Positions 18,692-35,439 of a stretch of 37,357 bases of DNA are shown piece after piece. Position 1 is the first letter of the stretch. The number at the start of each line of letters is the position of its first letter. A program made the position numbers and the translations under genes. The stretch is taken from positions 1-37,357 of the IMG/VR virus record IMGVR_UViG_3300025030_000271. One strand, given 5' to 3'. This DNA is from a virus. The notes beneath the pieces were generated by a model that worked only from the letters and a program-made list of their open reading frames with translations, did not search any database and had not been told where the DNA came from.

Positions 18692-18750
18692 TACCAGATT
18701 AGACACCTACTGGGTGCAGTTCGCCGTTTTTTAGGGGGTCTACTTCACGT
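18692..18750 (+). repeat. 59-bp attI-like repeat, copy 1
   Basis: Identical over 59 bases to 24762-24820 and, inverted, to 35381-35439. It contains GATTAGACAC, the short palindrome CACCTACTGGGTG, a T6 run, and a TTAGGGGGTC element 18 bases ahead of the core site, like a second binding site for an integrase. The core at the cassette junction here reads GTCGGGG, one base off the GTTGGGG of the other copies. Cassette DNA begins right after the G of this core. Confidence 0.9.
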
Positions 18751-19084
18751 CGGGGGTCTCTTCCCATCGCTGATCAATACTTTCATCTGGCTTCGCTGGG
18801 AGGGCCACCCAATAAAGCACGTCCTCCACGTAGTTGTCGTCCCACCCGTAGCCGGTCGGTATCGTTGGCCCGCCCATGCCGAGCGGGTCTTCGCGCTGTA
18901 GCGCCCATGTGTCCACGGTGGGATGTCCTTTCGTGTCGCGGCTGTAGCGCACCCACACTGCGCAAACCGTGTCCGGCTCTGGAACCCTCTCGTCCATTGG
19001 CACCCAGGCCCCCAACCTGGCGCTCAACTCGGACGTGCCGCTCGATGCTTCGTTCGTCGCTTCAGCGTTTTCCATCGTCATCAC
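18740..19084 (-). CDS. Cassette A1 gene, DUF551-like protein
   Basis: A 114-residue protein. Residues 27-105 (WVPMDERVPEPDTVCAVWV ... VEDVLYWVALPAKPDE) match the DUF551 pattern W-x-P-x-x-E-R-x-P ending in a W-x-x-L-P motif; function unknown. The start, with AGGAGTG before ATG, lies inside the loop of attC A1. The first residues (NEASSGTSELSARLGA) are therefore encoded by the recombination site, and the stop TAG lies inside the 59-bp repeat. It is antisense to attC orientation. Confidence 0.7.
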   Translation of the reverse strand: MMTMENAEATNEASSGTSELSARLGAWVPMDERVPEPDTVCAVWVRYSRDTKGHPTVDTWALQREDPLGMGGPTIPTGYGWDDNYVEDVLYWVALPAKPDESIDQRWEETPDVK

Positions 19085-19131
19085 TCCTTGTTTGTTCCGT
19101 GGGCGGCACGCCGGTTAACTTCACGTTCGGC
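19010..19131 (+). other. attC site A1
   Basis: R'' CCCCAAC (19010-19016), spacer CTGGC, L'' starting GCTCAAC, a long loop with inverted repeat CGTGCCGC/GCGGCACG, L' GGTTAAC, spacer TTCAC, R' GTTCGGC (19125-19131). It ends cassette A1, whose leading core is GTCGGGG, one base short of complementing this R''. The loop is nearly the same as in attC B2 and carries the start of the antisense gene. Confidence 0.8.
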
Positions 19132-19132
19132 G

Positions 19133-19483
19133 TCACACAGCGCCTAGCATCGCGGGTGGTGCCCACGTCGAAATGCCATCTATGATCTGCTGTATCTGTT
19201 CCTCCTCGTCGGAGTTCTCTGCTTCGAGCGTTGCCAGTACCAGCGCGGCGCGGTCGGCGAACTTCGCCAGTTCGGTCAGGTGGTGCCGCACTCGCCGGCC
19301 TTCGATCCGGTACGCCGCGCCCTCGCATTGCCGCGCGCAGGTGTCGCCCTGCCGCAGCATTGCGTTCTCGCGCTCAAGCTCGCGGCACAGTTCCGTCAGC
19401 GCCCTGTGCTGCGGTCCCAAGTCCCACCCTGCTTCCAGGGTCGCGCCAAGTGCTGCGCTTGTTCGTGGTGTGTCGTTGCTCAT
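19133..19483 (-). CDS. Cassette A2 gene, coiled-coil protein
   Basis: A 116-residue protein with helical heptad-like stretches (TELCRELERENAMLRQ and LAKFADRAALVLATLEAENS) and two Cys in CARQCEG. I start at ATG 19483 with GGAGGAAAC upstream. Phages and mobile elements often carry such small coiled-coil proteins; no function can be named. It runs leftward against the attC orientation, and its stop lies two bases from the cassette's leading core site. Confidence 0.6.
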   Translation of the reverse strand: MSNDTPRTSAALGATLEAGWDLGPQHRALTELCRELERENAMLRQGDTCARQCEGAAYRIEGRRVRHHLTELAKFADRAALVLATLEAENSDEEEQIQQIIDGISTWAPPAMLGAV

Positions 19484-19498
19484 GTTTCCTCCAGTGCC

Positions 19499-19582
19499 GG
19501 CCAACCCATCGGTCAACCTTCGTTCGCTTCGCTCACCGGACTGCGCAAAAGCAGCGCAGCCGGGTTACCTCAACCGTTAGAG
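19499..19582 (+). other. attC site A2
   Basis: R'' GGCCAAC (19499-19505), spacer CCATC, L'' GGTCAACC with extra C, loop with CGTTCGCTTCGCTC and a CTGCGC/GCGCAG stem, L' GGTTACC, spacer TCAACC, R' GTTAGAG (19576-19582). The arms pair well. R'' does not complement the cassette's own leading core GTTCGGC, which instead matches the R'' of attC A3. Confidence 0.78.
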
Positions 19583-19839
19583 CGCATGGCCTTGATCTGC
19601 CCAAGCTTGCCCTTCGCCTGTTCGAGTCTCATGCGTAGCGAGGAAACATCGCGCTCCGCCTTGGCGACCAAAAATGCGTGCGCCGCCTCCCATGTGTCGT
19701 GCCAGTTACTCCAATCGGAAACCTTGTTCTCGCGACTGCTACGGAATCCATTATTGGCCGGAAGAACAACCTGCTTGTCCGTCTCGCGCTCAACTTCCAG
19801 CGCCTCAATCTTGTTGAAACTCGTTCTGTACTTAATCAC
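19570..19839 (-). CDS. Cassette A3 gene with its own start
   Basis: An 89-residue protein from GTG 19839, preceded by AAAGGAACCGAA. It shows a beta start (IKYRTSFNKIEALEVERETD), then SDWSNWHDTWEAAHAFLV and a helix RLEQAKGKLGQIKAM. Proteins ending in this W-x-x-W-x-D-T-W...A-E-R...L-x-x-A pattern recur in environmental sequences, as I recall, without known function. This was presumably the gene before fusion; the same bases also form the end of the 234-residue frame. Confidence 0.6.
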   Translation of the reverse strand: MIKYRTSFNKIEALEVERETDKQVVLPANNGFRSSRENKVSDWSNWHDTWEAAHAFLVAKAERDVSSLRMRLEQAKGKLGQIKAMRSNG

Positions 19840-20274
19840 TTCGGTTCCTTTCAAAAGTCGGCTCTCGCAACACGCCGAACCCGGCGCTCGAAGGGATCTG
19901 CGCGATAAGTCCTGCGCAGCCCCCTCAGCTTGAACGTTGGGGGTCTTCAGTGTTTCCAAGTGCTTCAGCGCCCCCCCGACGAAATACGCGGAGAACTCAA
20001 ATTCGTTCGCATAGAACGCAACCTCGCCGGTCATCGCCACTGGCTCCCACCGCTCATTTACCCTCGTCGCGCAGCCAAACAGTCGGGAAAAGCCTTCTGC
20101 GTTCGGGTCGCTGCGGTCTTCGGTGTCGTATTCCTTGTGCCAAAGCGTGCCATCTGATCGAATCTCGTACTGATCGAGCCATTGCGCCGGCGTGTCTTTG
20201 GTCTGGTATTCAAGCGCCGCCGCGCCTTCGGCTGGCAACGGGTAGTGACACCGCAGGTAGTCAAACATTCCCAT
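19570..20274 (-). CDS. Fusion of cassette A4 and A3 genes across an attC
   Basis: A continuous 234-residue frame. Residues 1-110 (MGMFDYLRCHYPLPAEGAAA, a small mixed protein with YANEFEFSAYFVGG) come from cassette A4. Residues about 111-145 (KTPNVQAEGAAQDLSRRSL) are encoded by attC A3 read antisense. The rest is the cassette A3 protein (NWHDTWEAAHAFLVAKAERDV ... MRLEQAKGKLGQIKAM). ATG 20274 has GAGAGGAACAAG before it. The attC thus serves as an in-frame linker. Translation could also restart at GTG 19839. Confidence 0.6.
   Translation of the reverse strand: MGMFDYLRCHYPLPAEGAAALEYQTKDTPAQWLDQYEIRSDGTLWHKEYDTEDRSDPNAEGFSRLFGCATRVNERWEPVAMTGEVAFYANEFEFSAYFVGGALKHLETLKTPNVQAEGAAQDLSRRSLRAPGSACCESRLLKGTEVIKYRTSFNKIEALEVERETDKQVVLPANNGFRSSRENKVSDWSNWHDTWEAAHAFLVAKAERDVSSLRMRLEQAKGKLGQIKAMRSNG
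19874..19942 (+). other. attC site A3
   Basis: R'' GCCGAAC (19874-19880), spacer CCGGC, L'' GCTCGAAGGG, loop with a CTGCGC/GCGCAG stem, L' CCCCTCAGC, spacer TTGAAC, R' GTTGGGG (19936-19942). Sixty-nine bases. The two cassette genes on either side read through it in frame. Confidence 0.82.
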
Positions 20275-20296
20275 CTTGTTCCTCTCCGGGGGAAAC

Positions 20297-20366
20297 CCCC
20301 AACTCTGCGGTGCAGGGGACGCCGCGCGGTGAAGCTGCGCAGCACCCCTGACCTTGCACGTTATGC
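20297..20366 (+). other. attC site A4
   Basis: R'' CCCCAAC (20297-20303), the exact complement of its cassette's leading GTTGGGG at 19936. Spacer TCTGC, L'' GGTGCAGGGG with one extra base, L' CCCCTGACC, spacer TTGCAC, R' GTTATGC (20360-20366). Confidence 0.85.
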
Positions 20367-20657
20367 AGCAACGTCAGCACGTTGTTTCTCCCACTCTTCT
20401 TGCGCCGCATTGCAGCACAGAGGCCCGTCAGCGTCTTCTTCCCACTCGCGCCCGCAAAGGCTGCATTGCTCTTGGTACTCGCGTTCGACATTCAGGCTCA
20501 CCGGGTCTTGTGATCTGTGGTCGCGTACGAATTCCTCGAAGTCTCGGCACCATTCCTCAAGCCGTTGCGCCCGGTCTTCCAGCGTCTTCGACCAGCGTCC
20601 TACCGAATACGGCGGATCGCATGTCACGTTCAAATTCACCAGCACTTTCTGTTTCAT
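20361..20657 (-). CDS. Cassette A5 gene, Cys-rich small protein
   Basis: A 98-residue protein from ATG 20657 (GGAGAAGGCT before it). It has an N-terminal beta strand (KQKVLVNLNVTCDPPYSVG), a charged helical middle (TLEDRAQRLEEWCRDFEEFV), and CSLCGREW with a later CC pair that could form a zinc site. The stop codon is formed by the core site GTTATGC read antisense. Confidence 0.62.
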   Translation of the reverse strand: MKQKVLVNLNVTCDPPYSVGRWSKTLEDRAQRLEEWCRDFEEFVRDHRSQDPVSLNVEREYQEQCSLCGREWEEDADGPLCCNAAQEEWEKQRADVAA

Positions 20658-20676
20658 AGCCTTCTCCAAAAATGCT

Positions 20677-20745
20677 GCATAACCCATCGTTCGAGCGGAG
20701 CTTCGCCATAATGCCGGCGAATCCCGCTCAACTCAGACGTTAGCA
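20677..20745 (+). other. attC site A5
   Basis: R'' GCATAAC (20677-20683) exactly complements its cassette's leading GTTATGC at 20360. Spacer CCATC, L'' GTTCGAGCGG with extra C, L' CCGCTCAAC, spacer TCAGAC, R' GTTAGCA (20739-20745). Confidence 0.87.
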
Positions 20746-20746
20746 G

Positions 20747-21670
20747 TCAACATCTTGAACGCCGGCCGCAGCCGCCACCACCGCATCCGCCTCCGCTGTA
20801 GCTCTGGGCGCTTGTTTGCACCGGCGTCGAAACGAGGCGCTGCGCCTGCGGTCTCGGAGCAAGCGTGAGCGGCGTCTTCATTCCCCAGTCTGCATACACG
20901 TTGCCATCCGGGTGGATCACCGCTTCGTATATGCCGCCGGTCTGTAGCGAAGGCTCTGCAACTGAACCCTTCCACCGCACGGCAAAACCGTTTAGCTGTT
21001 GCTCCATCCCTCGGCAAACCGGGCATTTCGTTTCGTTCAGCACGCCATACTTCGCCGCAAAGATTGATTCCGTTGCTGTCGGCGTCGCATCGCCCGCAAC
21101 TTTGCGGAAACTCACGGCGTCGGCACCGAGGTCTTTGGCGTAGTCAATGAACTGGCCGCAGAAAGCAACTGAAACGTCAGCCTGAACTACGCAGTTAAAC
21201 GTTACGTCGCATGCCGTTTCCCCGTGCAAACGCAAGATCATGTCGCGCAGTGCATCGTCTGTCGGCGTCTTGTCGGTTTTGAACACGTCGCGGTTTGCGG
21301 CCGTGCCAATGGCGTGCCGGCTGATATTGACGTGATCGACGACGCACCCAACGGCGGTAACGAAAGGCAACAAGTTGCCCCCATGCGTTGTAAGCACAAC
21401 CCGTTCAAGCTGGTGGCTTCGGCGGTATTGTCCGAGCCGCGCCAAAACCTTGCCAAACCACGGGCTCAGTGTCGGCTCGCCACCCGATATGCTCAACACC
21501 CGGAACGCATCAGGCAGCCGGGCAAGGTGCGAAAACAACCGATCCAAGTAGTCGGCAGGCGGCCTAATCTTTGCCTCGTCTCGGTTCCAAAAACAGAAGT
21601 CGCACGAGGCGTTGCAACTACCTGGCAGCATCAGGGTTGTGTTCGGCCCGTAGGGGTTCGTTATCTTCAT
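20747..21670 (-). CDS. Cassette A6 gene, radical SAM protein
   Basis: A 307-residue radical SAM enzyme. The cluster motif GSCNASCDFCFWNR gives C-x3-C-x2-C near residues 18-25, and the SAM-binding GGEPT follows at about 64. A later CPVCRG near 227 and a C-terminal Gly/Cys-rich tail (SGGGCGGGGCGRRSRC) suggest further metal binding or an unusual modification function. No substrate can be inferred and there is no evident peptide partner next to it. It is by far the most elaborate enzyme carried in array A and is antisense to attC. Confidence 0.8.
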   Translation of the reverse strand: MKITNPYGPNTTLMLPGSCNASCDFCFWNRDEAKIRPPADYLDRLFSHLARLPDAFRVLSISGGEPTLSPWFGKVLARLGQYRRSHQLERVVLTTHGGNLLPFVTAVGCVVDHVNISRHAIGTAANRDVFKTDKTPTDDALRDMILRLHGETACDVTFNCVVQADVSVAFCGQFIDYAKDLGADAVSFRKVAGDATPTATESIFAAKYGVLNETKCPVCRGMEQQLNGFAVRWKGSVAEPSLQTGGIYEAVIHPDGNVYADWGMKTPLTLAPRPQAQRLVSTPVQTSAQSYSGGGCGGGGCGRRSRC

Positions 21671-21696
21671 TTCGGTCTCCGTAGCAGCAGCAAGAC

Positions 21697-21755
21697 TGCT
21701 AACAAGTCATTCCACCGGACGGCCTTCGGCCGCGCGGTGAATTCCGGCGTTATGC
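21697..21755 (+). other. attC site A6, classic 59-base form
   Basis: R'' TGCTAAC (21697-21703) exactly complements its cassette's leading GTTAGCA. Spacer AAGTC, L'' ATTCCACCG with extra C, loop GGCCTTCGGCC, L' CGGTGAAT, spacer TCCGGC, R' GTTATGC (21749-21755). It is 59 bases long, like the classic 59-base elements. Confidence 0.9.
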
Positions 21756-21896
21756 CTCATCGTCGTCATCCAGTTCTTCGAGGCGCATCTTCCAGCCCTC
21801 AGCAATCGGGGCGAGAACCTCCATCAACTCGCGCTCGTCCCCGACATACCGCGATAGCGCGGCATCTATCGCCTTCAAAACTTCCTTTGCATCCAT
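21750..21896 (-). CDS. Cassette A7 gene, 48-residue acidic protein
   Basis: A short frame from ATG 21896, with GGAGAACGGC before it: MDAKEVLKAIDAALSRYVGD, then a helix and an acidic end (LEELDDDDEA). The stop is created by the core GTTATGC read antisense. Fully helical, function unknown. Confidence 0.5.
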   Translation of the reverse strand: MDAKEVLKAIDAALSRYVGDERELMEVLAPIAEGWKMRLEELDDDDEA

Positions 21897-21916
21897 GCCG
21901 TTCTCCAGTGTTAGAG

Positions 21917-21934
21917 GCATAATTCACGTTGGGG
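21917..21934 (+). other. attC remnant A7
   Basis: GCATAAT (21917-21923) is one base off the R'' expected from the cassette's leading GTTATGC. It is followed directly by TCAC and the core GTTGGGG (21928-21934). L'', loop and L' are missing, so this attC appears to have lost its interior and could not fold; cassettes A7 and A8 would now move as one. Confidence 0.6.
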
Positions 21935-21935
21935 G

Positions 21936-22142
21936 TCAATTCAGCCTCGCCCCGGCCGGTCCAATTTTTACAATGTCATCGGCCATGAATCCGTCCAGTT
22001 CTCCGAGCCTGATCGTTTCCTCAATCACGTCATCGCCGTCGCCGCGCAGGCGTGCGGCGCGCGTCACGAATTCGCGGAACGTCAGCCCTTCGTCTGTCAG
22101 TTTTTTTGCCACAACTGTTATAGCGTCAAGTGCTGTTATCAT
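21936..22142 (-). CDS. Cassette A8 gene, small helical protein
   Basis: A 68-residue protein (MITALDAITVVAKKLTDEGL) with a basic helix FVTRAARLRGDG and an acidic end. ATG 22142 is preceded by GGAGACAGGAA. No family recognised. It lies antisense to attC, with its stop beside the leading core site. Confidence 0.55.
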   Translation of the reverse strand: MITALDAITVVAKKLTDEGLTFREFVTRAARLRGDGDDVIEETIRLGELDGFMADDIVKIGPAGARLN

Positions 22143-22154
22143 TTCCTGTCTCCT

Positions 22155-22391
22155 TCAAAAGCCGGCGCTGGCGGTACGGCGACCCCAACCCGGCGTTCCA
22201 GCGGAGCCTCCGGCGATAAGGCCGGTGACTTCTACGTTATGCCGATGCCCTACTATCTGCCCGTTTCGTACTGTGATGGTCGTCCGGCACTTTGAACAGC
22301 GGTAGCGTTGACCTTGTTCTCGACCTGCCTTTGCAGCGCATTGGCCCCTTGCGTGCCGATACCATTTACCTCCACATGGGCAGGGTGTCAT
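22155..22391 (-). CDS. Zinc-ribbon protein with attC-encoded tail
   Basis: A 78-residue protein. Residues 4-38 contain CPCGGKW, AKAGREQGQRYRCSKC and a TTITVRNG end, a small zinc-ribbon. Its ATG overlaps the replication-protein stop (22388-22391), so it belongs to the early operon. After GHRHN (about residue 52) it reads into attC A8, giving a 27-residue tail (VEVTGLIAGGSAGTPG and on). The native end was therefore replaced when the array inserted. Confidence 0.65.
   Translation of the reverse strand: MTPCPCGGKWYRHARGQCAAKAGREQGQRYRCSKCRTTITVRNGQIVGHRHNVEVTGLIAGGSAGTPGWGRRTASAGF
22183..22242 (+). other. attC site A8, array end
   Basis: R'' CCCCAAC (22183-22189) exactly complements the leading GTTGGGG of its cassette. 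Spacer CCGGC, weakly paired L''/L' arms, an inner CTCCGGCG/GCCGG loop, spacer TTCTAC, R' GTTATGC (22236-22242). Beyond this core, native phage sequence resumes within the zinc-ribbon gene. Confidence 0.75.
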
Positions 22392-22771
22392 GATTGCGCC
22401 CGAATCTTCGCCAGCGCTTCCCTGACGTGCGCCGGCATGAATTTCCGATCGGCTTGCTTTTCTTCGGCCAGGCGAACTGCCGGGGATTTCTCGGTATATG
22501 GCCTGTGCCAGCGAGGAAATTCATCTTCCCATCGTTCTCCGTTGAGCCATGTTGCAGGGTGAGGAATGTGCTGATCATCGGTTCCGCCATCAGCCCAAAT
22601 TCTGCGCCACTCAAAAAGCGCGGTAAGGATTGTCGGGTGCTCAATTGCGGGAATTTTTCCCCATGCGCGCCGCGCGTCTTTCTTGGCCACCCTTCGAGGG
22701 TACATTCCCCAAAAGTCGGAGAACTCGATCTGTAGGTCGGGTTCTTTTGTCTGTAGTGGGACTACGTTCAT
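22388..22771 (-). CDS. Replication protein O/DnaT-like fragment-size protein
   Basis: A 127-residue protein with FSDFWGMYPRRVAKKDARRAW near residues 17-37. This F-x-x-F-W-x-x-Y-P-x-x-x-x-K-x-x-A-x-x-x-W signature is seen in phage replication initiator and primosome-loading proteins, followed by IPHPATWLNGERWEDE. It probably acts in replication start. The short length suits a C-terminal domain type rather than a full initiator. A non-coding stretch with tandem repeats lies just upstream and may be its target. Confidence 0.65.
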   Translation of the reverse strand: MNVVPLQTKEPDLQIEFSDFWGMYPRRVAKKDARRAWGKIPAIEHPTILTALFEWRRIWADGGTDDQHIPHPATWLNGERWEDEFPRWHRPYTEKSPAVRLAEEKQADRKFMPAHVREALAKIRAQS

Positions 22772-23199
22772 TCTTTACCCCTTATGCCTTTACTATCTGC
22801 CCCCGAGCCGAAGGCGAAGCAGTCTTTATCCCGTGAAGGGTCTGCCTTTACGCCATCTGCTCAGGGTCTGCCCCGTCGCGTCAGTTACGATTCGTCAGCC
22901 TTGCTGGGTGCCCGTGCTGACTTCGCCGCGAGCCGCTCTGTTCCATCCCATTATCCCCGCAGTGAGCTTTGCGTATTGGCCGCTGCGAGTTACCCCCTCC
23001 AGCCGATACCTGGCGTGTTGCGCCAAAGCCAATGTTGCCGGGGCACGACATTCCAATCAATAGCCGGATCGTTGAAAATTGCGTCATGGTATTCACTACG
23101 ACTTGTAATTGTTTTTACTACAGCCTTGTAATTGTTTTTACTACAGCCTTGTAATTGTTTTTACTACAGCTAATGTCATATTTATCGGCAAGATTGCCA
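22772..23199. other. Non-coding stretch, possible origin region
   Basis: A 428-base interval in the early operon with no convincing gene on either strand; frames here lack ribosome sites and have unlike-protein composition. It contains three tandem 23-base AT-rich repeats at its right end. At 22782-22802 it has a TTATGCC...TACTATCTGCCC block that recurs at 22239-22262. Position next to the replication-type gene and iteron-like repeats make an origin the best guess. Confidence 0.4.
23102..23170 (+). repeat. Three tandem 23-base AT-rich repeats
   Basis: Three identical consecutive units at 23102-23124, 23125-23147 and 23148-23170, each starting CTTGTAATTG and containing TTTTTACTACAG. Perfect identity suggests recent expansion or functional constraint. 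They are iteron-like and lie upstream of the replication-type gene. Confidence 0.9.
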
Positions 23200-24743: not shown

Positions 24744-24761
24744 GGTGTAAAACTACTCCAT

Positions 24762-24820
24762 TACCAGATTAGACACCTACTGGGTGCAGTTCGCCGTTTT
24801 TTAGGGGGTCTACTTCACGT
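24762..24820 (+). repeat. 59-bp attI-like repeat, copy 2
   Basis: Identical to copies 1 and 3 over 59 bases, and shares five more bases (TCCAT) on the left with copy 3. The core is GTTGGGG at 24819-24825. It separates ninB from cassette B1. In copy 3 the bases around TACCAGATTAG form the last codons of a native gene; here they do not, suggesting this copy derives from elsewhere. Confidence 0.92.
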
Positions 24821-24832
24821 TGGGGGCTTTAG

Positions 24833-25276
24833 ATGAATACGCCTGAGGAGCATCTGAACGGAATAGAGCGATCACATCTTGTCGCGTACGGGGAGCACAT
24901 TCACGCCTACTACCGTCAGTTTCTTGGCCTCTCTTCAGCAGCTCTGACCATCTTATTGGCGCTTCAAAACAACTACATTCCGCAATCACCCGTATTGCCC
25001 ATTCTTGTTCAAGTGTGCTGGGCAAGCCTTGCACTTTGCGTCGCTCTGTCGCTTCTTCTTCTGTGGGGTCGAGCACAGACCAGGCTTGACGTAGCAAACG
25101 CTCTTCGTAAAGAGCGGAGATCAAAAACGGATCAGGCTGTTCTGGAAATGCTTCGCGCACATAACGGCGCATGGCCGCCAGAGCGGAAGATATTTTCCGT
25201 AGCGCGTTATCTGCAGTCAGCTTCATTTCTTATCGCCCTAGTCTCGCTTACGTGGTTTTCCATTGCGAACGTCTAG
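24833..25276 (+). CDS. Cassette B1 gene, three-helix membrane protein
   Basis: A 147-residue membrane protein with hydrophobic segments at about 30-45 (LGLSSAALTILLALQ), 54-80 (ILVQVCWASLALCVALSLLL) and 128-147 (SASFLIALVSLTWFSIAN), and a basic loop between. It starts eight bases after the core site, whose G run serves as ribosome site, and stops one base before R''. It is in the standard cassette orientation, opposite to the phage operon, so expression would need its own promoter. Function unknown. Confidence 0.75.
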   Translation: MNTPEEHLNGIERSHLVAYGEHIHAYYRQFLGLSSAALTILLALQNNYIPQSPVLPILVQVCWASLALCVALSLLLLWGRAQTRLDVANALRKERRSKTDQAVLEMLRAHNGAWPPERKIFSVARYLQSASFLIALVSLTWFSIANV

Positions 25277-25277
25277 C

Positions 25278-25364
25278 CCCCAACCCGGCGCTCAACCTCG
25301 CTCCCTTCGGTCGCTGGACGCTGCGCGATAAAGCCGCGCAGCGCCGGTTAGCTCTACGTTGGGG
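25278..25364 (+). other. attC site B1
   Basis: R'' CCCCAAC (25278-25284), spacer CCGGC, L'' GCTCAACC with one extra C, loop with CTCCCTTCGGTCG and a GCTGCGCG/CGCGCAGC stem, L' GGTTAGC, spacer TCTAC, R' GTTGGGG (25358-25364). A textbook attC; the extra base in L'' fixes rightward orientation. Confidence 0.93.
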
Positions 25365-25696
25365 GTCATCTGCGCACGCCCGAATTCCGTCAGTTCCGCA
25401 ACGTACTCGGTATATCCGCCAGCGGCATCTCGCGGTTCGTACCGGAGCAGCCCGGCATCCAGCATCCGTTCGGCCATGATGTATGTCGGTGAGCCAAGGC
25501 TGCCAGCCCCGCGCCCGTGAACGTGCATTTGCGTTGGGGTATTCTTCACCCACTCGCAGGCCCTCGGGTTCGACAGCCTCCGCAGCCACTCACGCATGGC
25601 CGGTGTGATAGCCCGCTTCGTGGTCAAGACCCCCAACCCGTCGTCCAACGCGGACGTGCCGCTCGATGCTTCGTTGTTGCTCGGTGCGTTATCCAT
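25292..25696 (-). CDS. Cassette B2 gene, antisense, unknown protein
   Basis: A 134-residue protein from ATG 25696 inside the loop of attC B2. Residues 8-22 (NEASSGTSALDDGLGV) are encoded by attC. The body (ITPAMREWLRRLSNPRACEW ... MLDAGLLRYEPRDAAGGYTEY) looks like a small winged-helix-like unit. The tail (TPNVELTGAARLYRAA) is attC B1 read antisense. It runs with phage transcription. Confidence 0.6.
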   Translation of the reverse strand: MDNAPSNNEASSGTSALDDGLGVLTTKRAITPAMREWLRRLSNPRACEWVKNTPTQMHVHGRGAGSLGSPTYIMAERMLDAGLLRYEPRDAAGGYTEYVAELTEFGRAQMTPNVELTGAARLYRAASSDRRERG

Positions 25697-25753
25697 GTTC
25701 AATCTTCTTTTGTGGCGTCCGTGGGCGGCACGCCGGTTAACTTTGCGTTGGGC
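25631..25753 (+). other. attC site B2, array end
   Basis: R'' CCCCAAC (25631-25637) exactly complements the leading GTTGGGG of its cassette. The long loop carries CGTGCCGC/GCGGCACG like attC A1, then L' GGTTAAC, spacer TTTGC, R' GTTGGGC (25747-25753). Native phage sequence follows. Confidence 0.82.
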
Positions 25754-26841: not shown

Positions 26842-26853
26842 GTTTTGCAGGGT

Positions 26854-28328: not shown

Positions 28329-28359
28329 TCCCGGCCCTGCCGGTAGGAGGAACACTGAA

Positions 28360-28428
28360 ATGAATGACGATGGCGGGGTCGAGTGGTGGCAAACCCAAGG
28401 ACAACAGGAGGAATTTGAACATGAATGA
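28360..28428 (+). CDS. 22-residue peptide ahead of annealing protein
   Basis: A short frame with a strong site TAGGAGGAACACTGAA before ATG 28360. It encodes an acidic peptide with EWWQ and QQEEFEHE, and its end overlaps the start of the annealing protein by eight bases. It may simply deliver ribosomes to that start. Confidence 0.4.
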   Translation: MNDDGGVEWWQTQGQQEEFEHE

Positions 28429-29218
28429 TCCGAAAGCGGGGCTTGCGCTACTTCGCCAGCCTTTTGACCCGAAGCTAATCAGCCGGCTACCGAAGCCGAC
28501 CAAGGCGCAGACTGATGCCGTCAAAGCGGATTACAAGGCCGGCGTCCGTTGTGAAATCTGTGGGACATGGCATCACCCGAAAGTTGTCCACCTGGATTAC
28601 GTCGGCCATGCTGTATTGACCGACCGTCTTCTGGACGCTGATCCAGAGTGGAATTGGGAACCCGCCAAAACCAACGACGACGGCACTCCAGTACTCGACA
28701 AGGACGGCGGAATGTGGATTAAGCTCACTGTCTGCGGTGTAACCAGACTTGGATACGGGGACGCCGAAGGGAAAACCGGCCCATCCGCCACAAAGGAACG
28801 GATCGGCGACGCCCTGCGGAATGCTGCGATGCGATTCGGGGCCGCGCTCGATCTGTGGAGCAAGGTCGATATTCACTTTGATGAACACGATGACGATGGC
28901 AAGGACGCCGTAGCGAAGAAAGCTGCCGAGGAAGCAGCAGCCAAAGCGAAAGCCGCCGAAGATGCCAAGAACAAGAAGGCCAAACCCTGGCCCGCCGACA
29001 AGTTCGCCGCCACCATTAAGAAACACGCGCCAACGGTCGCCAGCGGGGCCAAGACGGTCGAAGACCTACTGGCATGGATGAAGACGAAAGCGCCGCTCAC
29101 AGCCGAGCAGGAAGACGCTGTGCTGGCCCTGCGCCCGGTATCTGCGGATGGTGAAGTAATGACCGCCGCCGAGATTGCCGCTGCGCTGGAGCTTGAAAAG
29201 AAGGAGGCCGGACAATAA
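28421..29218 (+). CDS. Rad52-like single-strand annealing protein
   Basis: A 265-residue protein from ATG 28421 with CAGGAGGAATTT upstream. The N-terminal two thirds carry the pattern YVGHAVLTDRLLDADPEWNW, then IKLTVCGVTRLGYGD and ERIGDALRNAAMRFGAALDL, which I associate with phage Rad52/DUF1071-type annealing proteins. A CEICGTWHHP motif near 43 may bind zinc. The C-terminal third is an Ala/Lys-rich linker and a small domain. It pairs with the exonuclease two genes downstream in a recombination module. Confidence 0.65.
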   Translation: MNDPKAGLALLRQPFDPKLISRLPKPTKAQTDAVKADYKAGVRCEICGTWHHPKVVHLDYVGHAVLTDRLLDADPEWNWEPAKTNDDGTPVLDKDGGMWIKLTVCGVTRLGYGDAEGKTGPSATKERIGDALRNAAMRFGAALDLWSKVDIHFDEHDDDGKDAVAKKAAEEAAAKAKAAEDAKNKKAKPWPADKFAATIKKHAPTVASGAKTVEDLLAWMKTKAPLTAEQEDAVLALRPVSADGEVMTAAEIAAALELEKKEAGQ

Positions 29219-29475
29219 TGGTCTCAAACGTCGAGCCAAAGGCAGGTGATTCGTTCATTGACGTGTCTGGAACCACCCTGCGGGTAACTAGGCGCGTTCA
29301 CTGCGGCAAGACTTGCGGTGATGGATACTTGCATATTGTTCAACCTTCCAGCGTGGACGAGGGCGCGTTCTCGCCAGCACAAGACATAACAATATATTTA
29401 CGCACCGCGGCAATGGCAAAATTGCTCGCACTAGCTTTTACTGAGTTTGCTGCCGCCATCGAAGGAGATGCATGA
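29218..29475 (+). CDS. Small phage protein of unknown function
   Basis: An 85-residue protein between annealing protein and exonuclease, coupled to both by overlaps. It is beta-rich (GTTLRVTRRVHCGKTCGDGY) with an Ala-rich helical end. No recognised motif; possibly an accessory of the recombination pair. Confidence 0.55.
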   Translation: MVSNVEPKAGDSFIDVSGTTLRVTRRVHCGKTCGDGYLHIVQPSSVDEGAFSPAQDITIYLRTAAMAKLLALAFTEFAAAIEGDA

Positions 29476-31109
29476 AAATGAAGCCGATCAACCTCGTACC
29501 CGGCTCGCCGGAATGGATCAAGTCGCGCAGCGCATCGAAAGCTCCGGCAGTCATGGGCGCCAGCAAGTACCAGTCTCGCAGCGATCTGCTGAAAGTGATG
29601 GCAACGGGCATCACCAAGGACGTCGACGCGGCCACTCAAGCGCGATTCGACGCCGGCCATGCCAGCGAAGCCGCGGCGCGTGAGATTGCCGAGGACATTG
29701 TTTGTGATGGCCTGTCGCCGGTCTGCGGGGAATCGGACGACGGATACCTGACGGCGAGCTTCGACGGCTTGACGTTCGACGGGCGTATCGGCTACGAGCA
29801 TAAGCTGTGGAACGAAAGTCTTGCCACCGCCGTCAGCACCAACGATCTGCCTGAAGAATATAAGTGGCAGATGGATCAGCATATTCTCGTCGGCGGGCTG
29901 GAATACGTCCTGTTCATGGTTTCTGATGGCACCCGCGAGAAGTGCGTTTCGATGGAGTACCGCTCGACGTCGGAACGCGCCGCTGCGCTGATTGCGGCGT
30001 GGAGGATGTTCGACGCCGACCTCGCCGCCTACCAGCACACCGAAGCCGCGCCGGAAGTAGTCGCCGCGCCGCAGATGGCGCTGCCCGCCCTGTCGATTCA
30101 GGTCAGCGGATCAATCAGTCTGATCGACAATCTCGAAATATTCGGTGCGAAGCTGGGCGCATTCATTGCCGGCCTTCCCGAAAATCCAGCCACAGATCAG
30201 GAATTCGCCGACGCCGACGCCGCAGTCAAGACGCTCAAGACCGCCGAGGAAGCCCTGGACGCCGCCGAGTCCTCTGCGCTGGCGCAAACGGCAAGCATTG
30301 ACCAGATGCGCCGCACCGTGGGCTTGTACCGCGATCAGGCACGCACTGCAAGGCTGATGCTCGACAAGCTAGTCAAGGCCCGGAAGGAAAGTATCCGGGT
30401 CGAGATCGTGCTTGAAGCCAGCACAAAACTGGCGGAGCATATCGCCGACCTGAACAAGCGCATCGGCAAACCCTACATGCCGGCGGCGCACGGTGATTTT
30501 TCAGGCGCCATCAAGGGCATGAAGAAAGTTTTGACTTTGCGCGACGCCTGTGATGCAGAGTTGGCGCGATGCAAGATCGAAGCCAACGTCATCGCCGACA
30601 AGATCAGCATCAACCTTGCGAGTTTGCGCGAACTTGCCGCAGATCACGCTTTCCTCTTTGCTGACACGCAAGCCCTCGTTACCGGGAAGGCGAACGACGA
30701 TCTGGTGTTGCTCATCAAGAGCCGGATCAGCGACCACAAGGCCACCGAGGCGAAGAAACTGGAGGCCATAAAAGAGTCGGCGCGGATCGAGGCAGAAAAG
30801 AATGCAGAGGCAAAAATCAAGGCCGAGCAGGAGAGTCTAGCTGCTGAAGCGTTGGCTTCAGTAAAAGCTGCGTCGCCAATGCTACAGGCGATTATCGAAC
30901 CTGCACCCCAGCAGACCGCACAACCTGCCCCAGTAGTCGATTCACGGCCCATATCGCCGCCTGTCCGAGATGCGGCCACCAGACCAACCGATTGCCAAAT
31001 CGTCGAGGTACTCGCCCTACATTACAGAGTACACGAGTCAAAGGTTATCGAGTGGCTTCTGGATATGGACATCGACAAGCAATCCGTGAATCTTGCGGGG
31101 GCAATGTGA
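29472..31109 (+). CDS. YqaJ-type viral exonuclease with long helical C-terminus
   Basis: A 545-residue protein. Residues 1-190 form a YqaJ/lambda-exonuclease-like nuclease: GSPEWIKSRSASKAPAVMGA, then RFDAGHASEAAAREIAED, and the catalytic D...E-x-K region SFDGLTFDGRIGYEHKLW (about 94-111). The rest is a long helical, Lys/Ala/Glu-rich region with a Pro-rich hinge near 490, resembling DUF1351-type extensions. It would resect 5' ends for the annealing protein. The long extension is larger than in most family members. Confidence 0.8.
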   Translation: MKMKPINLVPGSPEWIKSRSASKAPAVMGASKYQSRSDLLKVMATGITKDVDAATQARFDAGHASEAAAREIAEDIVCDGLSPVCGESDDGYLTASFDGLTFDGRIGYEHKLWNESLATAVSTNDLPEEYKWQMDQHILVGGLEYVLFMVSDGTREKCVSMEYRSTSERAAALIAAWRMFDADLAAYQHTEAAPEVVAAPQMALPALSIQVSGSISLIDNLEIFGAKLGAFIAGLPENPATDQEFADADAAVKTLKTAEEALDAAESSALAQTASIDQMRRTVGLYRDQARTARLMLDKLVKARKESIRVEIVLEASTKLAEHIADLNKRIGKPYMPAAHGDFSGAIKGMKKVLTLRDACDAELARCKIEANVIADKISINLASLRELAADHAFLFADTQALVTGKANDDLVLLIKSRISDHKATEAKKLEAIKESARIEAEKNAEAKIKAEQESLAAEALASVKAASPMLQAIIEPAPQQTAQPAPVVDSRPISPPVRDAATRPTDCQIVEVLALHYRVHESKVIEWLLDMDIDKQSVNLAGAM

Positions 31110-31186: not shown

Positions 31187-31199
31187 GGAGGGGAAGAAC

Positions 31200-31475: not shown

Positions 31476-31476
31476 C

Positions 31477-31565
31477 GCCGAACGTAGAGCTAACCGGCTC
31501 ACGGGCGGCCTTATCGCCCGTGAGCCCAGAGAGCGAAGCGAACGAGGTTGAGCGCCGGGTTGGAG
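31477..31565 (-). other. attC site C7, array end
   Basis: On the minus strand: R'' CTCCAAC (31565-31559), spacer CCGGC, L'' GCTCAACC with extra C, loop with CGTTCGCTTCGCTC and a GGCTCACGGGCG stem, L' GGTTAGC, spacer TCTAC, R' GTTCGGC (31483-31477). R'' exactly complements the cassette's leading GTTGGAG. Confidence 0.92.
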
Positions 31566-31621
31566 GTAACGGGCCATGACACTGGACGAATACCTCACGG
31601 AATGCGAGCTGCCAGAGAACC

Positions 31622-31903
31622 TCATGCCGTACCGCCGGGCGTTGATGTCCTTAGCTTGTGAAGCGCGGCGATGTGCTCTTGTGTCTTCTCGCTCGTGCAC
31701 AGATGGCGAAGCAGCCCAATGGTGCCGGCAGCAGCCACTCGCGATGCTTGAGCATGGCGTTGCTGGTGCATTGCTAGGATGTCGTCAATGGCTTTCGCGT
31801 TTGCTACGCCAGTCATTACCACGACATCTATCAATGTTCTGGCGATGTCTATCAACGCGACTTCGGTTTCAGAAGGCTGCGGCGGAATTGGAAATTCACT
31901 CAT
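31622..31903 (-). CDS. Cassette C7 gene, helical protein
   Basis: A 93-residue protein (MSEFPIPPQPSETEVALIDI) with amphipathic helices (ARTLIDVVVMTGVANAKAID) and a basic end. It is in standard cassette orientation. The core site GTTGGAGGT lies nine bases before the ATG and doubles as its ribosome site. Function unknown. A frame on the opposite strand is its shadow. Confidence 0.65.
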   Translation of the reverse strand: MSEFPIPPQPSETEVALIDIARTLIDVVVMTGVANAKAIDDILAMHQQRHAQASRVAAAGTIGLLRHLCTSEKTQEHIAALHKLRTSTPGGTA

Positions 31904-31913
31904 GTGTAGTTAC

Positions 31914-31983
31914 CTCCAACGACAGAGTGGAGGGGCGCGACGCAGCCTTATCGCGGCGCGTCCCTTCGCACGACGGGTTGTGC
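31914..31983 (-). other. attC site C6
   Basis: Minus strand: R'' GCACAAC (31983-31977), spacer CCGTC, L'' GTGCGAAGGG with extra C, loop with a CGCCGCGATAAGGCTGCGTCG-like stem, L' CCCCTCCAC, spacer TCTGTC, R' GTTGGAG (31920-31914). R'' exactly complements GTTGTGC at 33308-33302, which fixes cassette C6 as one 1.3-kb unit. Confidence 0.88.
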
Positions 31984-32006
31984 GGCAACGTAACTACGGA
32001 GAACGA

Positions 32007-32039
32007 ATGAATGAGTTGGCTCTTTTCGCAGGCGCTGGT
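32007..32039 (+). pseudogene. 5' remnant of a C5-methyltransferase gene
   Basis: ATG 32007, with GGAGAACGA before it, begins MNELALFAGAG, the start and motif I of a C5-cytosine methyltransferase, and then diverges. The same protein motif recurs intact at the methyltransferase start (residues 12-20) 0.55 kb downstream, with different synonymous codons. The nuclease gene between them has evidently split off this original 5' end. Confidence 0.7.
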
Positions 32040-32068
32040 ATAATGAAGCCGCTTATTCGGGAGGCTTC

Positions 32069-32563
32069 ATGGAAACCAAGCGGTGCAGCAAATGCGGTAA
32101 CGATCTACCGCTATCTGCGTTTTACCAGCGCACAGGCGCAAAATCGCACCACTCAGCTTGCAAGGTGTGCGAGCGCGCAATGGCAAAGGATTGGTACGAG
32201 CGCAACAAGGACAAGGCAACAGCCAAGGTCAAGGAGTGGCGGCAACAGAATAGCGATGCCGTCAAGCAGTACCGGGCCGACAACAGGCAGAAGCACTACC
32301 GGCAAGAGCTTGGCAGGAAATACGGCGTTGAGCCATCTTGGTTCGACGAGCAGTTACAGCGCCAAGGCAATGCGTGCGTGTGCTGCAAGCGCCAATTCCA
32401 GTGGGGCGGCAAGCAAACCACGCCGCATGTTGATCACTGCCACAACACCAAAGCGATTCGCGGAATTCTCTGTAACCGATGCAACACCGTTCTTGGCTTG
32501 TGCGAAGACGACGACAAGTTGCTTTCGGCTTTGGCGAGGTATCTGAGGAAATGTCATGGCTGA
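32069..32563 (+). CDS. Endonuclease VII-type HNH nuclease
   Basis: A 164-residue protein with an N-terminal zinc finger (RCSKCGNDLPLSAF ... CKVCERA) and a C-terminal recombination-endonuclease-VII core (CVCCKRQF, VDHCHNTKAIRGILCNRCN, LGLCEDDDKLL). GGGAGGCTTC precedes its ATG. This type acts as a freestanding homing endonuclease in phages. It sits inside the start of the methyltransferase gene of cassette C6 and overlaps the restored start by eight bases. Confidence 0.85.
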   Translation: METKRCSKCGNDLPLSAFYQRTGAKSHHSACKVCERAMAKDWYERNKDKATAKVKEWRQQNSDAVKQYRADNRQKHYRQELGRKYGVEPSWFDEQLQRQGNACVCCKRQFQWGGKQTTPHVDHCHNTKAIRGILCNRCNTVLGLCEDDDKLLSALARYLRKCHG

Positions 32564-33374
32564 TAAGTCGGGCGCTGATGGAGGATTACGCGAACTCGCG
32601 CTCTTCGCTGGGGCTGGTGGCGGAATACTCGGGGGCAAGCTGCTCGGGTGGCGAACCGTTTGCGCTGTTGAGCGTGATGGATACGCCGCACAAGTTCTGG
32701 CACAGCGGCAAAACGATGGATGCCTTGAGCCTTTCCCGATTTGGGCTGACGTGTGCAGTTTTGACGGAAAGCCTTGGGCTGGAATTGTTGACGTTGTTTC
32801 GGGCGGCTTTCCGTGCCAAGACATCAGCAGCGCGGGGAAAGGCGCAGGACTCGACGGCGAACGCTCTGGCCTCTGGCGCGAAATGGCCCGGATCATTGGC
32901 GAGGTTCGACCGCGATTCGTTTTCGTGGAGAACTCCCCAATGCTCACTCTTCGAGGACTCGGAGCCGTGCTTGGAGACTTGGCCGCGATGGGGTTTGATG
33001 CACGGTGGGGAGTGCTGGGAGCTTCCGCCATTGGCGCACCGCACCGAAGAGAGCGAATCTGGATTGTTGCCTACGCTGACCCTGATTTCGTGCGAGCACC
33101 CTGGACGTTTCAAGCGCAAAGACGGGCAACAGACCTGCATAAGCATGGAGTTGGCGAAGCGGGACAACTGGGAAGCTGGTGGGAAGTACAACCCGAACCA
33201 TGCAGCGTGGTTTATGGCATGGCCGGAGTGGTGGACAGACTTAGGCCATTCGGCAACGGACAAGTACCGTCTGTGGCGGCAACGGCATGGCGGATTTTGA
33301 CGCACAACGTAGAGCTAACCGGCTCCGGGCAGGTTCATCGCCCGGAGTCCAGCGACCGAAGGGAGCGAGGTTGA
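32556..33374 (+). CDS. C5-cytosine DNA methyltransferase (cassette C6)
   Basis: A 272-residue Dcm-family enzyme: motif I LALFAGAGGGILGGKLLGW, motif IV SGGFPCQDIS with the catalytic Cys, motif VI region FVENSPML, motif VIII GAPHRRERIW, and a late NGQVPSVAATAW. The usual E-N-V is E-N-S here. It is short, with a small target domain. Residues 250-272 (NVELTGSGQVHRPES) are encoded by attC C5. It may protect phage DNA from host restriction. No partner restriction enzyme is present. Confidence 0.82.
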   Translation: MADKSGADGGLRELALFAGAGGGILGGKLLGWRTVCAVERDGYAAQVLAQRQNDGCLEPFPIWADVCSFDGKPWAGIVDVVSGGFPCQDISSAGKGAGLDGERSGLWREMARIIGEVRPRFVFVENSPMLTLRGLGAVLGDLAAMGFDARWGVLGASAIGAPHRRERIWIVAYADPDFVRAPWTFQAQRRATDLHKHGVGEAGQLGSWWEVQPEPCSVVYGMAGVVDRLRPFGNGQVPSVAATAWRILTHNVELTGSGQVHRPESSDRRERG

Positions 33375-33388
33375 GCGCCGGGTTAGGG
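33302..33388 (-). other. attC site C5
   Basis: Minus strand: R'' CCCTAAC (33388-33382), spacer CCGGC, L'' GCTCAACC with extra C, loop with CTCCCTTCGGTCG and a CTCCGGGC stem, L' GGTTAGC, spacer TCTAC, R' GTTGTGC (33308-33302). Closely similar to attC B1. R'' has one mismatch to its cassette's leading GTTAGAG. Confidence 0.9.
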
Positions 33389-33436
33389 CGCCACCGGGAA
33401 AACAGACCAGCGGCGCTTAGAAAAAAGAGGGAACGA

Positions 33437-33637
33437 ATGCTTACGATAGAGCGAGGGAAGGCGCTAGACAACGAGATCATGAGGGCGATGGCAATCCCGA
33501 TCCGCACAGAACAAATGCTGCACGGTAAAGGGCTGATTGTTGTGCAGTGGATTGCGGAGGACCCAACGGTAGCCGGGTATGAGTTCTTGGCTGAGTACAT
33601 TGCTATGCGAATAAAGGCCATGCGCTCTAACGTGTAG
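33437..33637 (+). CDS. Cassette C5 gene, small helical protein
   Basis: A 66-residue protein from ATG 33437 with GAGGGAACGA before it (MLTIERGKALDNEIMRAMAI, then LIVVQWIAEDPTVAGYEFLA). The last residues (MRSNV) and stop lie in attC C4. It runs with the early operon, antisense to attC. Function unknown. Confidence 0.6.
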   Translation: MLTIERGKALDNEIMRAMAIPIRTEQMLHGKGLIVVQWIAEDPTVAGYEFLAEYIAMRIKAMRSNV

Positions 33638-33747
33638 GTGAGGCGCGGCCCCACCGCGGAAGGAGAAACGAAGTGACAACGACAAAGACACCGCAGGACG
33701 CAAACGAAGGCACGATAGGGGCCGTCGCCTCGACCGCCGGGTTGGGG
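33625..33747 (-). other. attC site C4
   Basis: Minus strand: R'' CCCCAAC (33747-33741), spacer CCGGC, L'' GGTCGAGGCG with extra C, a long loop carrying the start of the antisense gene, L' CGCCTCACC, spacer TACAC, R' GTTAGAG (33631-33625). R'' exactly complements its leading GTTGGGG. Confidence 0.86.
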
Positions 33748-34377
33748 GTACCGACCACTTGCAGAGATGCGTTCGTTGCGATGGTGAGGGACGAGAATTT
33801 CTACCGCGAGGCGTGGTCAAGATGGTCGCTGAAGGCACACTGGACAGGTGCAGTAGGCGGGTTTGCCGACGAAATGTTGCAAAAGCGGTGGAAGGATTTT
33901 CAGGCTGGATGGTGCGCATGCACCCCCAACGCAAAAGTCAGCGGTGGCGGAACGCCGTCCGCTGGACTGCCGGGTTCGACCACTGCACCGACGAAGGATA
34001 GAACTGAAATGCCGAAATGTGGAGGTCGTGAATACTGCACGCGGATGCCTTTTTGCGGCTGTGGCGGTCCGACCGAGGAAGAGATAGACGAAGACGCGCT
34101 GGAGCGCTTCACGAAGGCGATGCGCGTAAAACTGGCGGCGTCCAGAGCCAAGGGGCGGCACGGATGGCACAACCCAGATGTTTGCAGCGTCGAGGATTTG
34201 GCGCGAATGTTTTTCGATCATGTTGCAAAGGGCGATCTGGTCGACATAGCAAACTTTGCGATGTTTCTTCATCAGCGCAAGGGCCGCCCGGAGACTTGGC
34301 GGCTCACTCACCCCGACACATGGGGTGAGGGGTCGAACGTAGAGCTAACCGGCGCTGCGCGCCACGAAAGGGAGTAA
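33673..34377 (+). CDS. Fusion of cassette C4 and C3 genes across an attC
   Basis: A continuous 234-residue frame from GTG 33673 with AAGGAGAAACGAA before it. Residues 1-25 (NEGTIGAVASTAGLGV region) are encoded by attC C4. Residues 26-84 are the C4 protein (FVAMVRDENFYREAWSRWSL, then FADEMLQKRWKDFQAGW). Residues 85-110 (TPNAKVSGGGTPSAGLPGS) are attC C3 read antisense as a linker. The rest is the C3 protein. The end (GSNVELTGAARHERE) comes from attC C2. Confidence 0.65.
   Translation: MTTTKTPQDANEGTIGAVASTAGLGVPTTCRDAFVAMVRDENFYREAWSRWSLKAHWTGAVGGFADEMLQKRWKDFQAGWCACTPNAKVSGGGTPSAGLPGSTTAPTKDRTEMPKCGGREYCTRMPFCGCGGPTEEEIDEDALERFTKAMRVKLAASRAKGRHGWHNPDVCSVEDLARMFFDHVAKGDLVDIANFAMFLHQRKGRPETWRLTHPDTWGEGSNVELTGAARHERE
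33924..33980 (-). other. attC site C3
   Basis: Minus strand: R'' GTCGAAC (33980-33974), spacer CCGGC, L'' AGTCCAGCGG with extra C, short loop, L' CCGCTGACT, spacer TTTGC, R' GTTGGGG (33930-33924). R'' exactly complements GTTCGAC at 34338. At 57 bases it is compact and fully open in the antisense frame. Confidence 0.9.
34009..34377 (+). CDS. Cassette C3 gene with its own start
   Basis: A 122-residue protein from ATG 34009 with GAAGGATAGAACTGAA upstream. It opens MPKCGGREYCTRMPFCGCGG, a Cys-rich knuckle, then an acidic segment (EEEIDEDALERFTKAMRVKL) and WHNPDVCSVEDLARMFFDHV, a pattern that I recall from small phage proteins. It can be translated alone or as part of the 234-residue fusion. Confidence 0.62.
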   Translation: MPKCGGREYCTRMPFCGCGGPTEEEIDEDALERFTKAMRVKLAASRAKGRHGWHNPDVCSVEDLARMFFDHVAKGDLVDIANFAMFLHQRKGRPETWRLTHPDTWGEGSNVELTGAARHERE

Positions 34378-34454
34378 GAGCGATGACGATTGAGAAACCA
34401 CAAGATTCAGTAGCGCCTACGGGCGCAGCGTCCGCGTTGAGCGCCGGGTTGGGG
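34332..34454 (-). other. attC site C2
   Basis: Minus strand: R'' CCCCAAC (34454-34448), spacer CCGGC, L'' starting GCTCAACG, long loop with GGCGC/GCGCC elements, L' GGTTAGC, spacer TCTAC, R' GTTCGAC (34338-34332). R'' exactly complements the leading GTTGGGG of C2. Confidence 0.86.
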
Positions 34455-34503
34455 GTCCGAACCATGAAGAAGGAAAGCGACATGACTGTGTTTGTTGGTG
34501 GCA

Positions 34504-34812
34504 TTACTTGGGTAGACCAAGCGTGGCCCGAAGCTCTGCCAGAAGACCCTCGATTGAGGCTTCGTATTCTTGCTGGAAGGCTCCGAGTTCACTTGGGTCT
34601 ATGCCTAGGAATACTTTCGGCGCCGTTGGCAATTTCGGCAGCCATGCTTCTTGAAGTTCTGCGAGCACTTGTTCGGGCGGTGACGAGGAACGGCGAATTA
34701 CTGTGGCTAGAGCGGTTAGCAGTAGCGTTCGCTGGGCGTTCATTTGGCCCACGGTTTTGTGTCGGGACTCTTCAAGACGCCGGACACGATCTTCAAGGGA
34801 AGGCTGATTCAT
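34504..34812 (-). CDS. Cassette C2 gene, helical protein
   Basis: A 102-residue protein starting seven bases after the core's G run (MNQPSLEDRVRRLEESRHKT, a coiled-coil start, with LLLTALATVIRRS in the middle). Standard cassette orientation. Helical throughout, function unknown. A long frame on the opposite strand (34383-34901) is considered its shadow. Confidence 0.65.
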   Translation of the reverse strand: MNQPSLEDRVRRLEESRHKTVGQMNAQRTLLLTALATVIRRSSSPPEQVLAELQEAWLPKLPTAPKVFLGIDPSELGAFQQEYEASIEGLLAELRATLGLPK

Positions 34813-34819
34813 CTAAGAC

Positions 34820-34887
34820 CCCCAACGTTCAAGATAACCGGGCTTCGCGGCCTTATCGCGAAGCTCCGGTTGATCGCAGGGTTGGGG
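34820..34887 (-). other. attC site C1
   Basis: Minus strand: R'' CCCCAAC (34887-34881), spacer CCTGC, L'' GATCAACC with extra C, loop with CTTCGCG/CGCGAAG stem, L' GGTTATC, spacer TTGAAC, R' GTTGGGG (34826-34820). R'' exactly complements the leading GTTGGGG next to repeat copy 3. Confidence 0.92.
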
Positions 34888-34901
34888 GTCAGCGGTCATG
34901 A

Positions 34902-35366
34902 TCAAGGCGCTTTCTTTGTGGCTGGACCGGAAGATGGGACTACCGCCTGGGTGGGGGGTGCCGATTGTGCTGTGGGGGTTTGCGGTTGCGATGCAGTGGC
35001 TGGCGATTTTCCTTCAGGCGTTTTATCTGCCTTGGCTGCAAACCATACTTGCGCCCCTGTACCGATAAGCGAGGCAACCGTGAGAACGACAACAAGTTTT
35101 TGCAGTTTCGTGTTGCTCTCGTTCAGGTTGGTGATGTGGTCGTGAAGCTCCGTAACGTGACCTTGGAGAGTTTCAATGTGCGCACGTAGTAGATGGGTTC
35201 GGACTGTCTCGCAGATTTGCGGGAACTGGGAGGCGCCAAAATGTGAAGATGCTTGCGGGCGGCAAATGATCGCTGCGAAGTGCTCAAGGCGAGCTATCGG
35301 AAAGCGCGCGATTGCGCCGGAGTTAATGCTCTCTCTCACGTCGTCAAGATCATCTGAGATGCTCAT
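34902..35366 (-). CDS. Cassette C1 gene, membrane-anchored protein
   Basis: A 154-residue protein from ATG 35366, the first cassette after the attI-like repeat, in standard orientation. The N-terminal part is helical (SDDLDDVRESINSGAI), the middle a coiled coil (LQGHVTELHDHITNLNESNT). One membrane segment (LVVVLTVASLIGTGAQVWFA) follows at about 100-119, and then a Pro/Ala/Thr-rich tail. It may be a membrane-tethered surface or signalling protein. It follows the lysis operon in the same direction and could be expressed from it. Confidence 0.7.
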   Translation of the reverse strand: MSISDDLDDVRESINSGAIARFPIARLEHFAAIICRPQASSHFGASQFPQICETVRTHLLRAHIETLQGHVTELHDHITNLNESNTKLQKLVVVLTVASLIGTGAQVWFAAKADKTPEGKSPATASQPQTPTAQSAPPTQAVVPSSGPATKKAP

Positions 35367-35380
35367 TACTGAGACCCCCA

Positions 35381-35439
35381 ACGTGAAGTAGACCCCCTAA
35401 AAAACGGCGAACTGCACCCAGTAGGTGTCTAATCTGGTA
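35381..35439 (-). repeat. 59-bp attI-like repeat, copy 3
   Basis: Inverted relative to copies 1 and 2, identical over 59 bases. Its core GTTGGGG lies at 35382-35376. The outer bases encode the last residues and stop (LPD, TAG) of the DUF1353-like gene. After the short ACTG/CAGT stem and GGTG/CGCC pairing comes a T6 run, so it could also end the lysis transcript. Confidence 0.92.

Follow-up and report, generated by a model that had tools for sequence, protein, structure and literature searches.

The DNA analysed here (the window) comprises all 37,357 bases of the metagenomic IMG/VR virus record IMGVR_UViG_3300025030_000271, which is classed as linear. A terminase, a portal-type connector and lysis genes all lie on this contig, together with a terminase small subunit, a tail protein and an endonuclease VII, and the contig is therefore a phage genome. 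Set among these genes are three arrays of attC sites, the mark of integron cassettes, and each array begins with one copy of a near-identical repeat of 65–70 nt that is oriented as its array (Table 1). A sequence-only reading had proposed three integron-type cassette arrays in a phage and had judged a bacterial contig unlikely; both proposals held up, as attC sites were detected by a bacterial model and as terminases, connector, RecE and endolysin are present, with phage genes between the arrays.

Three independent models were used to detect attC sites, and their results agree. A box-and-stem finder, which served for the first scan and used only the boxes and stem pairing, revealed the arrays but missed some sites. 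A position weight matrix-plus-pairing model, its training limited to 13 attCs of plasmid class 1 integrons (L043–L047), gave scores of 22–46 to 16 sites, grouped into three blocks of uniform orientation; at a score of at least 24, 0.3 sites per strand were expected from shuffled windows. The third was a covariance model (R2, built with Infernal) trained on 47 attCs, which a single half-site pattern had retrieved from bacterial contigs, and on no window sequence. RNAalifold alone paired only six columns, and the R/L pairing was supplied from the literature instead. In the training alignment, the R''–R' and L''–L' helices were backed by compensatory changes, with 6 of the 8 pairs of helix 2 covarying and 6 never broken. 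Searched with filters off, the window contained exactly 16 full-length sites (E-values from 4.1e-13 to 4.1e-6); the next match had an E-value of 0.7. Of 20 other viral records, mostly relatives by terminase large subunit (TerL), 18 yielded nothing with the same model, which did recover the published phage attC cluster of MW202573. Compensatory changes were likewise present among the window attCs when these were aligned to the model.

The window attCs have the order R''–L''…L'–R' and the extra base in L'' that define integron attCs. Across all 16 sites this extra base assigns a single orientation to each array, as the sequence-only reading had stated: seven plus-strand sites at 19.0–22.2 kb (array 1, 19010–22242), two plus-strand sites at 25.3–25.8 kb (array 2, 25278–25753) and seven minus-strand sites at 31.5–34.9 kb (array 3, 31477–34887). 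The count of 17 sites given by that reading was one too high, and its 17th site is not supported. An L'-R'-like half site with two R'-like boxes and no R''–L'' arm, GTTAGAGGCATAATTCACGTTGGGGG, lies at 21911–21936; it is probably what had been counted as the 17th site and is possibly a recombination scar or a secondary site.

The main point that had been overlooked is the attI at the head of each array. Indeed, positions 18692 and 35439, previously taken as the limits of the attC arrays, are ends of the head repeats. The repeat terminates in GTCTACTTCACGTTGGGGG, which is the integron core site G|TTRRR. In copy 1 the core reads GTCGGGGG where the others have GTTGGGGG (GTC for GTT), and this copy may therefore be impaired. 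Similar cores occur in Betaproteobacteria (L099, L105) upstream of intI, ∼160 nt from the intI match. Searching 399 Burkholderiales genomes for the core motif GTCTACTTNACGTTRGG gave 17 matches in 15 genomes, compared with 3 for a reversed-pattern control, and in L124, L129, L131, L132 and L133 a full intI lies ∼120–150 nt from the core, which is directed away from it. The resemblance extends beyond the core: the upstream segment CCAG[AT]TT..ACAC[CT]T...GGTGC...TTTTAG.GTGTCTAC is common to the phage and six loci (L131–L135, L137), and the upstream half, from which the search pattern is absent, still aligns to L131–L133 (z 7–8, p ≤ 0.001). Over 63–68 nt, the phage repeat and L131–L135 share 75–78% identity in local alignments with gentle gap costs. 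We named the repeat attI because its core, upstream alignment and identity match bacterial attI beside intI; judged by this homology, it is an attI, and its type is the one found beside intI in chromosomal integrons of Burkholderiales. Each platform thus consists of its own attI followed by attC cassettes in one orientation. BLAST had shown less than these local alignments: its sole result for the attI within the family of G222 was a partial match to the core, in G104. In viral contigs, an exact 21-base stretch of the window attI had no match, a shorter core leading to L042.

No integrase was found to accompany these platforms. A six-frame search of the window gave no match to the tyrosine recombinase family PF00589, PF07508 was likewise not found in the window, and there is no intI beside any attI there. 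The contig therefore carries attCs in close groups without an integrase, as in clusters of attC sites lacking integron integrases (CALINs). Similarly, IntI (TIGR02249) was detected in none of the 14 other viral records that contain arrays or related sequence; it exceeded the curated cut-off in 21 of the 28 bacterial genomes that share the half-site.

Table 1. Integron elements, cassette genes and phage genes of the window (E-values of attCs from model R2; RBS, ribosome-binding site)
Feature	Position	Strand	Remarks
attI copy 1, head of array 1	18692..18760	+	98% identity with copy 2
attI copy 2, head of array 2	24757..24826	+	100% identity with copy 3 over 70 nt
attI copy 3, head of array 3	35375..35444	-	homologous to bacterial attI
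attC, array 1, 122 nt	19010..19131	+	E 1.4e-6; contains RBS and start of gene 18740-19081 (-)
attC, array 1	19499..19582	+	E 1.7e-6
attC, array 1	19874..19942	+	E 4e-10; 91% identity with attC in L078
attC, array 1	20297..20366	+	E 3.9e-10
attC, array 1	20677..20745	+	E 4.7e-11
attC, array 1	21697..21755	+	E 6.9e-9
attC, array 1, most distal	22183..22242	+	E 1.2e-6
attC, array 2	25278..25364	+	E 3.2e-9
attC, array 2, 123 nt	25631..25753	+	E 4e-6; contains start of gene 25292-25696 (-)
attC, array 3	34820..34887	-	E 4.1e-13
attC, array 3, 123 nt	34332..34454	-	E 1.9e-8; contains RBS, ATG, leader
attC, array 3	33924..33980	-	E 4.7e-11
attC, array 3, 123 nt	33625..33747	-	E 2.6e-8; contains RBS and GTG start of gene 33673-34377 (+)
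attC, array 3	33302..33388	-	E 4.3e-8
attC, array 3	31914..31983	-	E 4.1e-6
attC, array 3, most distal	31477..31565	-	E 1.7e-6
Whole cassette: gene 20361-20657 (-) and attC	20361..20745	+	common to bacterial integron, L087 (Ca. Brocadiaceae)
First cassette gene of array 2, canonical direction	24833..25276	+	147 aa; no family match
First cassette gene of array 3, canonical direction	34902..35381	-	159 aa; no family match
C5 cytosine DNA methyltransferase cassette gene, reversed relative to attCs	32556..33374	+	PF00145 5e-30; phrog_363 4e-67
Endonuclease VII-like cassette gene	32069..32563	+	PF02945 4e-16
Radical SAM protein cassette gene	20747..21670	-	PF04055 1.9e-6, slightly under cut-off
Portal-type head-tail connector	1720..3381	-	phrog_332 3e-65
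Terminase large subunit	3593..5203	-	phrog_979 2e-24; 100% identical in two other samples
Phage single-strand annealing protein (SSAP) and RecE-like exonuclease, between arrays 2 and 3	28364..31109	+	
Phage endolysin, beyond array 3	35836..36363	-	phrog_181 4e-63

Other phage contigs carry comparable arrays. L042 has five attCs in one orientation, the same attI core and a central tail fibre gene. The 58.5-kb contig G009 (L145–L147, IMGVR 3300022208_000278), with terminase, connector, major head protein and DnaB, holds ∼40 attCs in five blocks, with three attI-like repeat copies (90–94% identical) at array heads. The upstream half of the L042 attI could not be aligned to L131–L133, and the homology of the G009 head repeats to these loci was not significant; the head elements of both contigs are therefore termed attI-like, by position and core only. 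Further contigs are G010 (18 attCs, portal), G008 (13, portal and head protein), G005 (11, portal), G004 (8, DNA polymerase and helicase) and G461 (L166), a RecE-related phage contig with 8 attCs in two blocks and the attI-like cores CCAGATTAGGCACCTGCGCAGGTGCATATCACACGTTAGG and GGGGTCTAACTTACGTTAG upstream. G010 and G003, which were among the records screened for IntI, have 127-bp identical terminal repeats and therefore look like complete circular assemblies. As no attCs were found in the TerL relatives of the window phage, the arrays are an accessory trait rather than a lineage marker.

These contigs also bear on the integrity of the window. The window being a metagenomic record, and its close relatives L004 and L005 covering only its left third, one could suspect an assembly chimera, in which arrays of bacterial origin were fused to phage DNA, or a bacterial contig. 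However, arrays and phage genes follow each other in turn: RecE and SSAP separate array 2 from array 3, and the endolysin lies past array 3, so that a chimera would need several joins. Contigs from other samples combine phage genes with arrays as well, and G010 and G003 have identical ends, as in circular assemblies. We therefore consider a chimera or a bacterial contig highly improbable. The left part of the window recurs in two other samples at 99% identity.

Comparison with bacteria revealed attCs and one whole cassette common to the phage and bacterial integrons. The cassette at 20361–20745 matches the metagenome-assembled genome (MAG) L087 at 84.8% over 394 nt; identity climbs at the ACGTTATGC junction, runs at ∼75–97% through the gene and drops inside the attC, the edges of the shared cassette thus coinciding with recombination points. 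The attC at 25278 is 97.6% identical to one in L132, a locus that also holds intI and a related attI, and the attC at 34332 shares 94% over 132 nt with an attC in the Rhodocyclaceae MAG L089. Furthermore, the methyltransferase cassette gene has a relative with 66% amino acid identity at the bacterial locus L071, in a stretch bounded by attCs. Pieces of host integrons could also have entered the phage passively, by illegitimate or homologous recombination, leaving arrays and attIs as inert relics spread by duplication and inversion. The missing integrase, the mutated core of attI copy 1, the many cassette genes without known function and the near-identity of the three attI copies, as expected from duplication, would all fit such hitch-hiking. 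We nevertheless regard it as unlikely: the edges of the match to L087 fall at recombination points, the R and L boxes of the phage attCs are still paired, with compensatory changes, and further phage contigs are laid out in the same way.

Gene direction in the window was assigned by codon-usage scoring with Shine–Dalgarno motifs, which replaced counts of longest open reading frames (ORFs), unreliable in this GC-rich DNA. Every well-scored gene of array 1 runs opposite to the attC direction; arrays 2 and 3 have canonical cassettes next to attI and mostly reversed ones elsewhere. Many cassette genes are thus opposite to the direction of class 1 cassettes and aligned with the phage operons. The first cassette protein of array 2 had no match in 300 Burkholderiales genomes. 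For the radical SAM gene, the top NCBIfam matches were the MoaA and viperin families, far under the cut-off. Between arrays 1 and 2, a 23-mer, CTTGTAATTGTTTTTACTACAGC, occurs in three perfect tandem copies at 23102–23170. Rfam detected no attC family in the window, its sole match being an unrelated small RNA family, Betaproteobacteria-1 RNA (RF02932; 22890–23009, minus strand, 60.8 bits against a cut-off of 49.4).

On their reversed strand, the attCs of ∼123 nt combine a ribosome-binding site with a start codon and a conserved leader peptide (e.g. GAASALSAGLG), which continues across L'' and R'' into the coding sequence of the cassette. Start and R'' are 57, 66, 72 or 75 nt apart, in every case a multiple of three, and in several cases the upstream gene terminates within the hairpin region. 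This family of attCs is also present in L042, L048, L049, L057, L072, L078, L082, L088 and L089, which include phages and bacteria. With stop codon, ribosome-binding site and start codon in the attC hairpin, a cassette would arrive in the phage transcript with a translation start of its own, and the ∼123-nt attC may thus double as a translational coupler. These signals, and the position of the head elements at the ends of transcription units, could be taken to mean that the hairpins are mainly RNA elements, either terminators or translation couplers, whose resemblance to attC is secondary. Yet the R and L boxes, the extra L'' base and the G|TT core are specific to attC, the sites were detected by a bacterial attC model, and the head elements are homologous to attI beside intI, which leaves this explanation with very little credibility.

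We consider that the arrays are most likely three integrase-less integron platforms, presumably served in trans by an IntI of the host. During infection, host IntI would recombine folded single-stranded attCs with the double-stranded attI of the phage at G|TT. The phage could thereby gain, lose and reorder accessory genes, for example a DNA methyltransferase, and pass cassettes between hosts, and it would benefit from such shuffling. Several points weigh against this interpretation. The linear record may not cover the complete genome, and an integrase could therefore lie elsewhere in the phage genome. Copy 1 of attI, with GTC in place of GTT, may be dead, and the orientation counts from longest ORFs are noisy. 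Moreover, recombination was not observed, nor did any near-identical phage with another set of cassettes turn up, so that the platforms may not be active at present.

AttC clusters (CALINs) in phages were reported in 2023 by Qi et al. (PMC9892861), for example in TJE1, PH101, P12002L and MW202573, and phage attCs were recombined by IntI1 (PMC9892861). The novelty claimed by the sequence-only reading therefore stands only in part: phage attC clusters themselves are known, and we found more phage contigs that carry them, but a single phage with several arrays that are headed by attI and lack intI is new. We found no report of several such arrays in one phage in the literature of open-licence papers. 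Like the window phage, the published phage CALINs are attC clusters without an integrase and have DNA methyltransferase cassettes; the examples described consist of few attCs in one cluster, with three in TJE1 (PMC9892861), whereas the window phage has a total of 16 attCs, and an attI heads each of its three arrays. In MW202573, no attI core was found within 3 mismatches. The Shewanella prophage M16-3 likewise has a cluster without its own integrase that has its own attI, but this cryptic prophage carries intI and two attIs, compared with three attIs and no intI in the window phage (PMC9892861). The sedentary chromosomal integrons of Burkholderiales share a homologous attI, near-identical attCs and a cassette with the window phage; they differ in having intI beside attI, in contrast to the several array heads and missing intI of the phage.

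Bacteria capture gene cassettes mainly by means of integrons, which raises the question of how cassettes reach distant bacteria. Our data suggest that a phage of environmental bacteria borrows a host enzyme to trade genes with bacteria. We also lean, with some reserve, towards the existence of a class of phages that have several attI-headed arrays without an integrase and use host IntI as a shared tool for gene exchange, their attCs with stop codon, ribosome-binding site and start codon giving expression within phage operons. The IMG/VR loci, which include a phage contig with as many as ∼40 attCs, suggest that phage arrays have been under-counted. If our interpretation is correct, phages with a matching attI, shared cassettes and no integrase would be ready-made cassette carriers, and the arrays would provide phages with a modular way to swap accessory genes.

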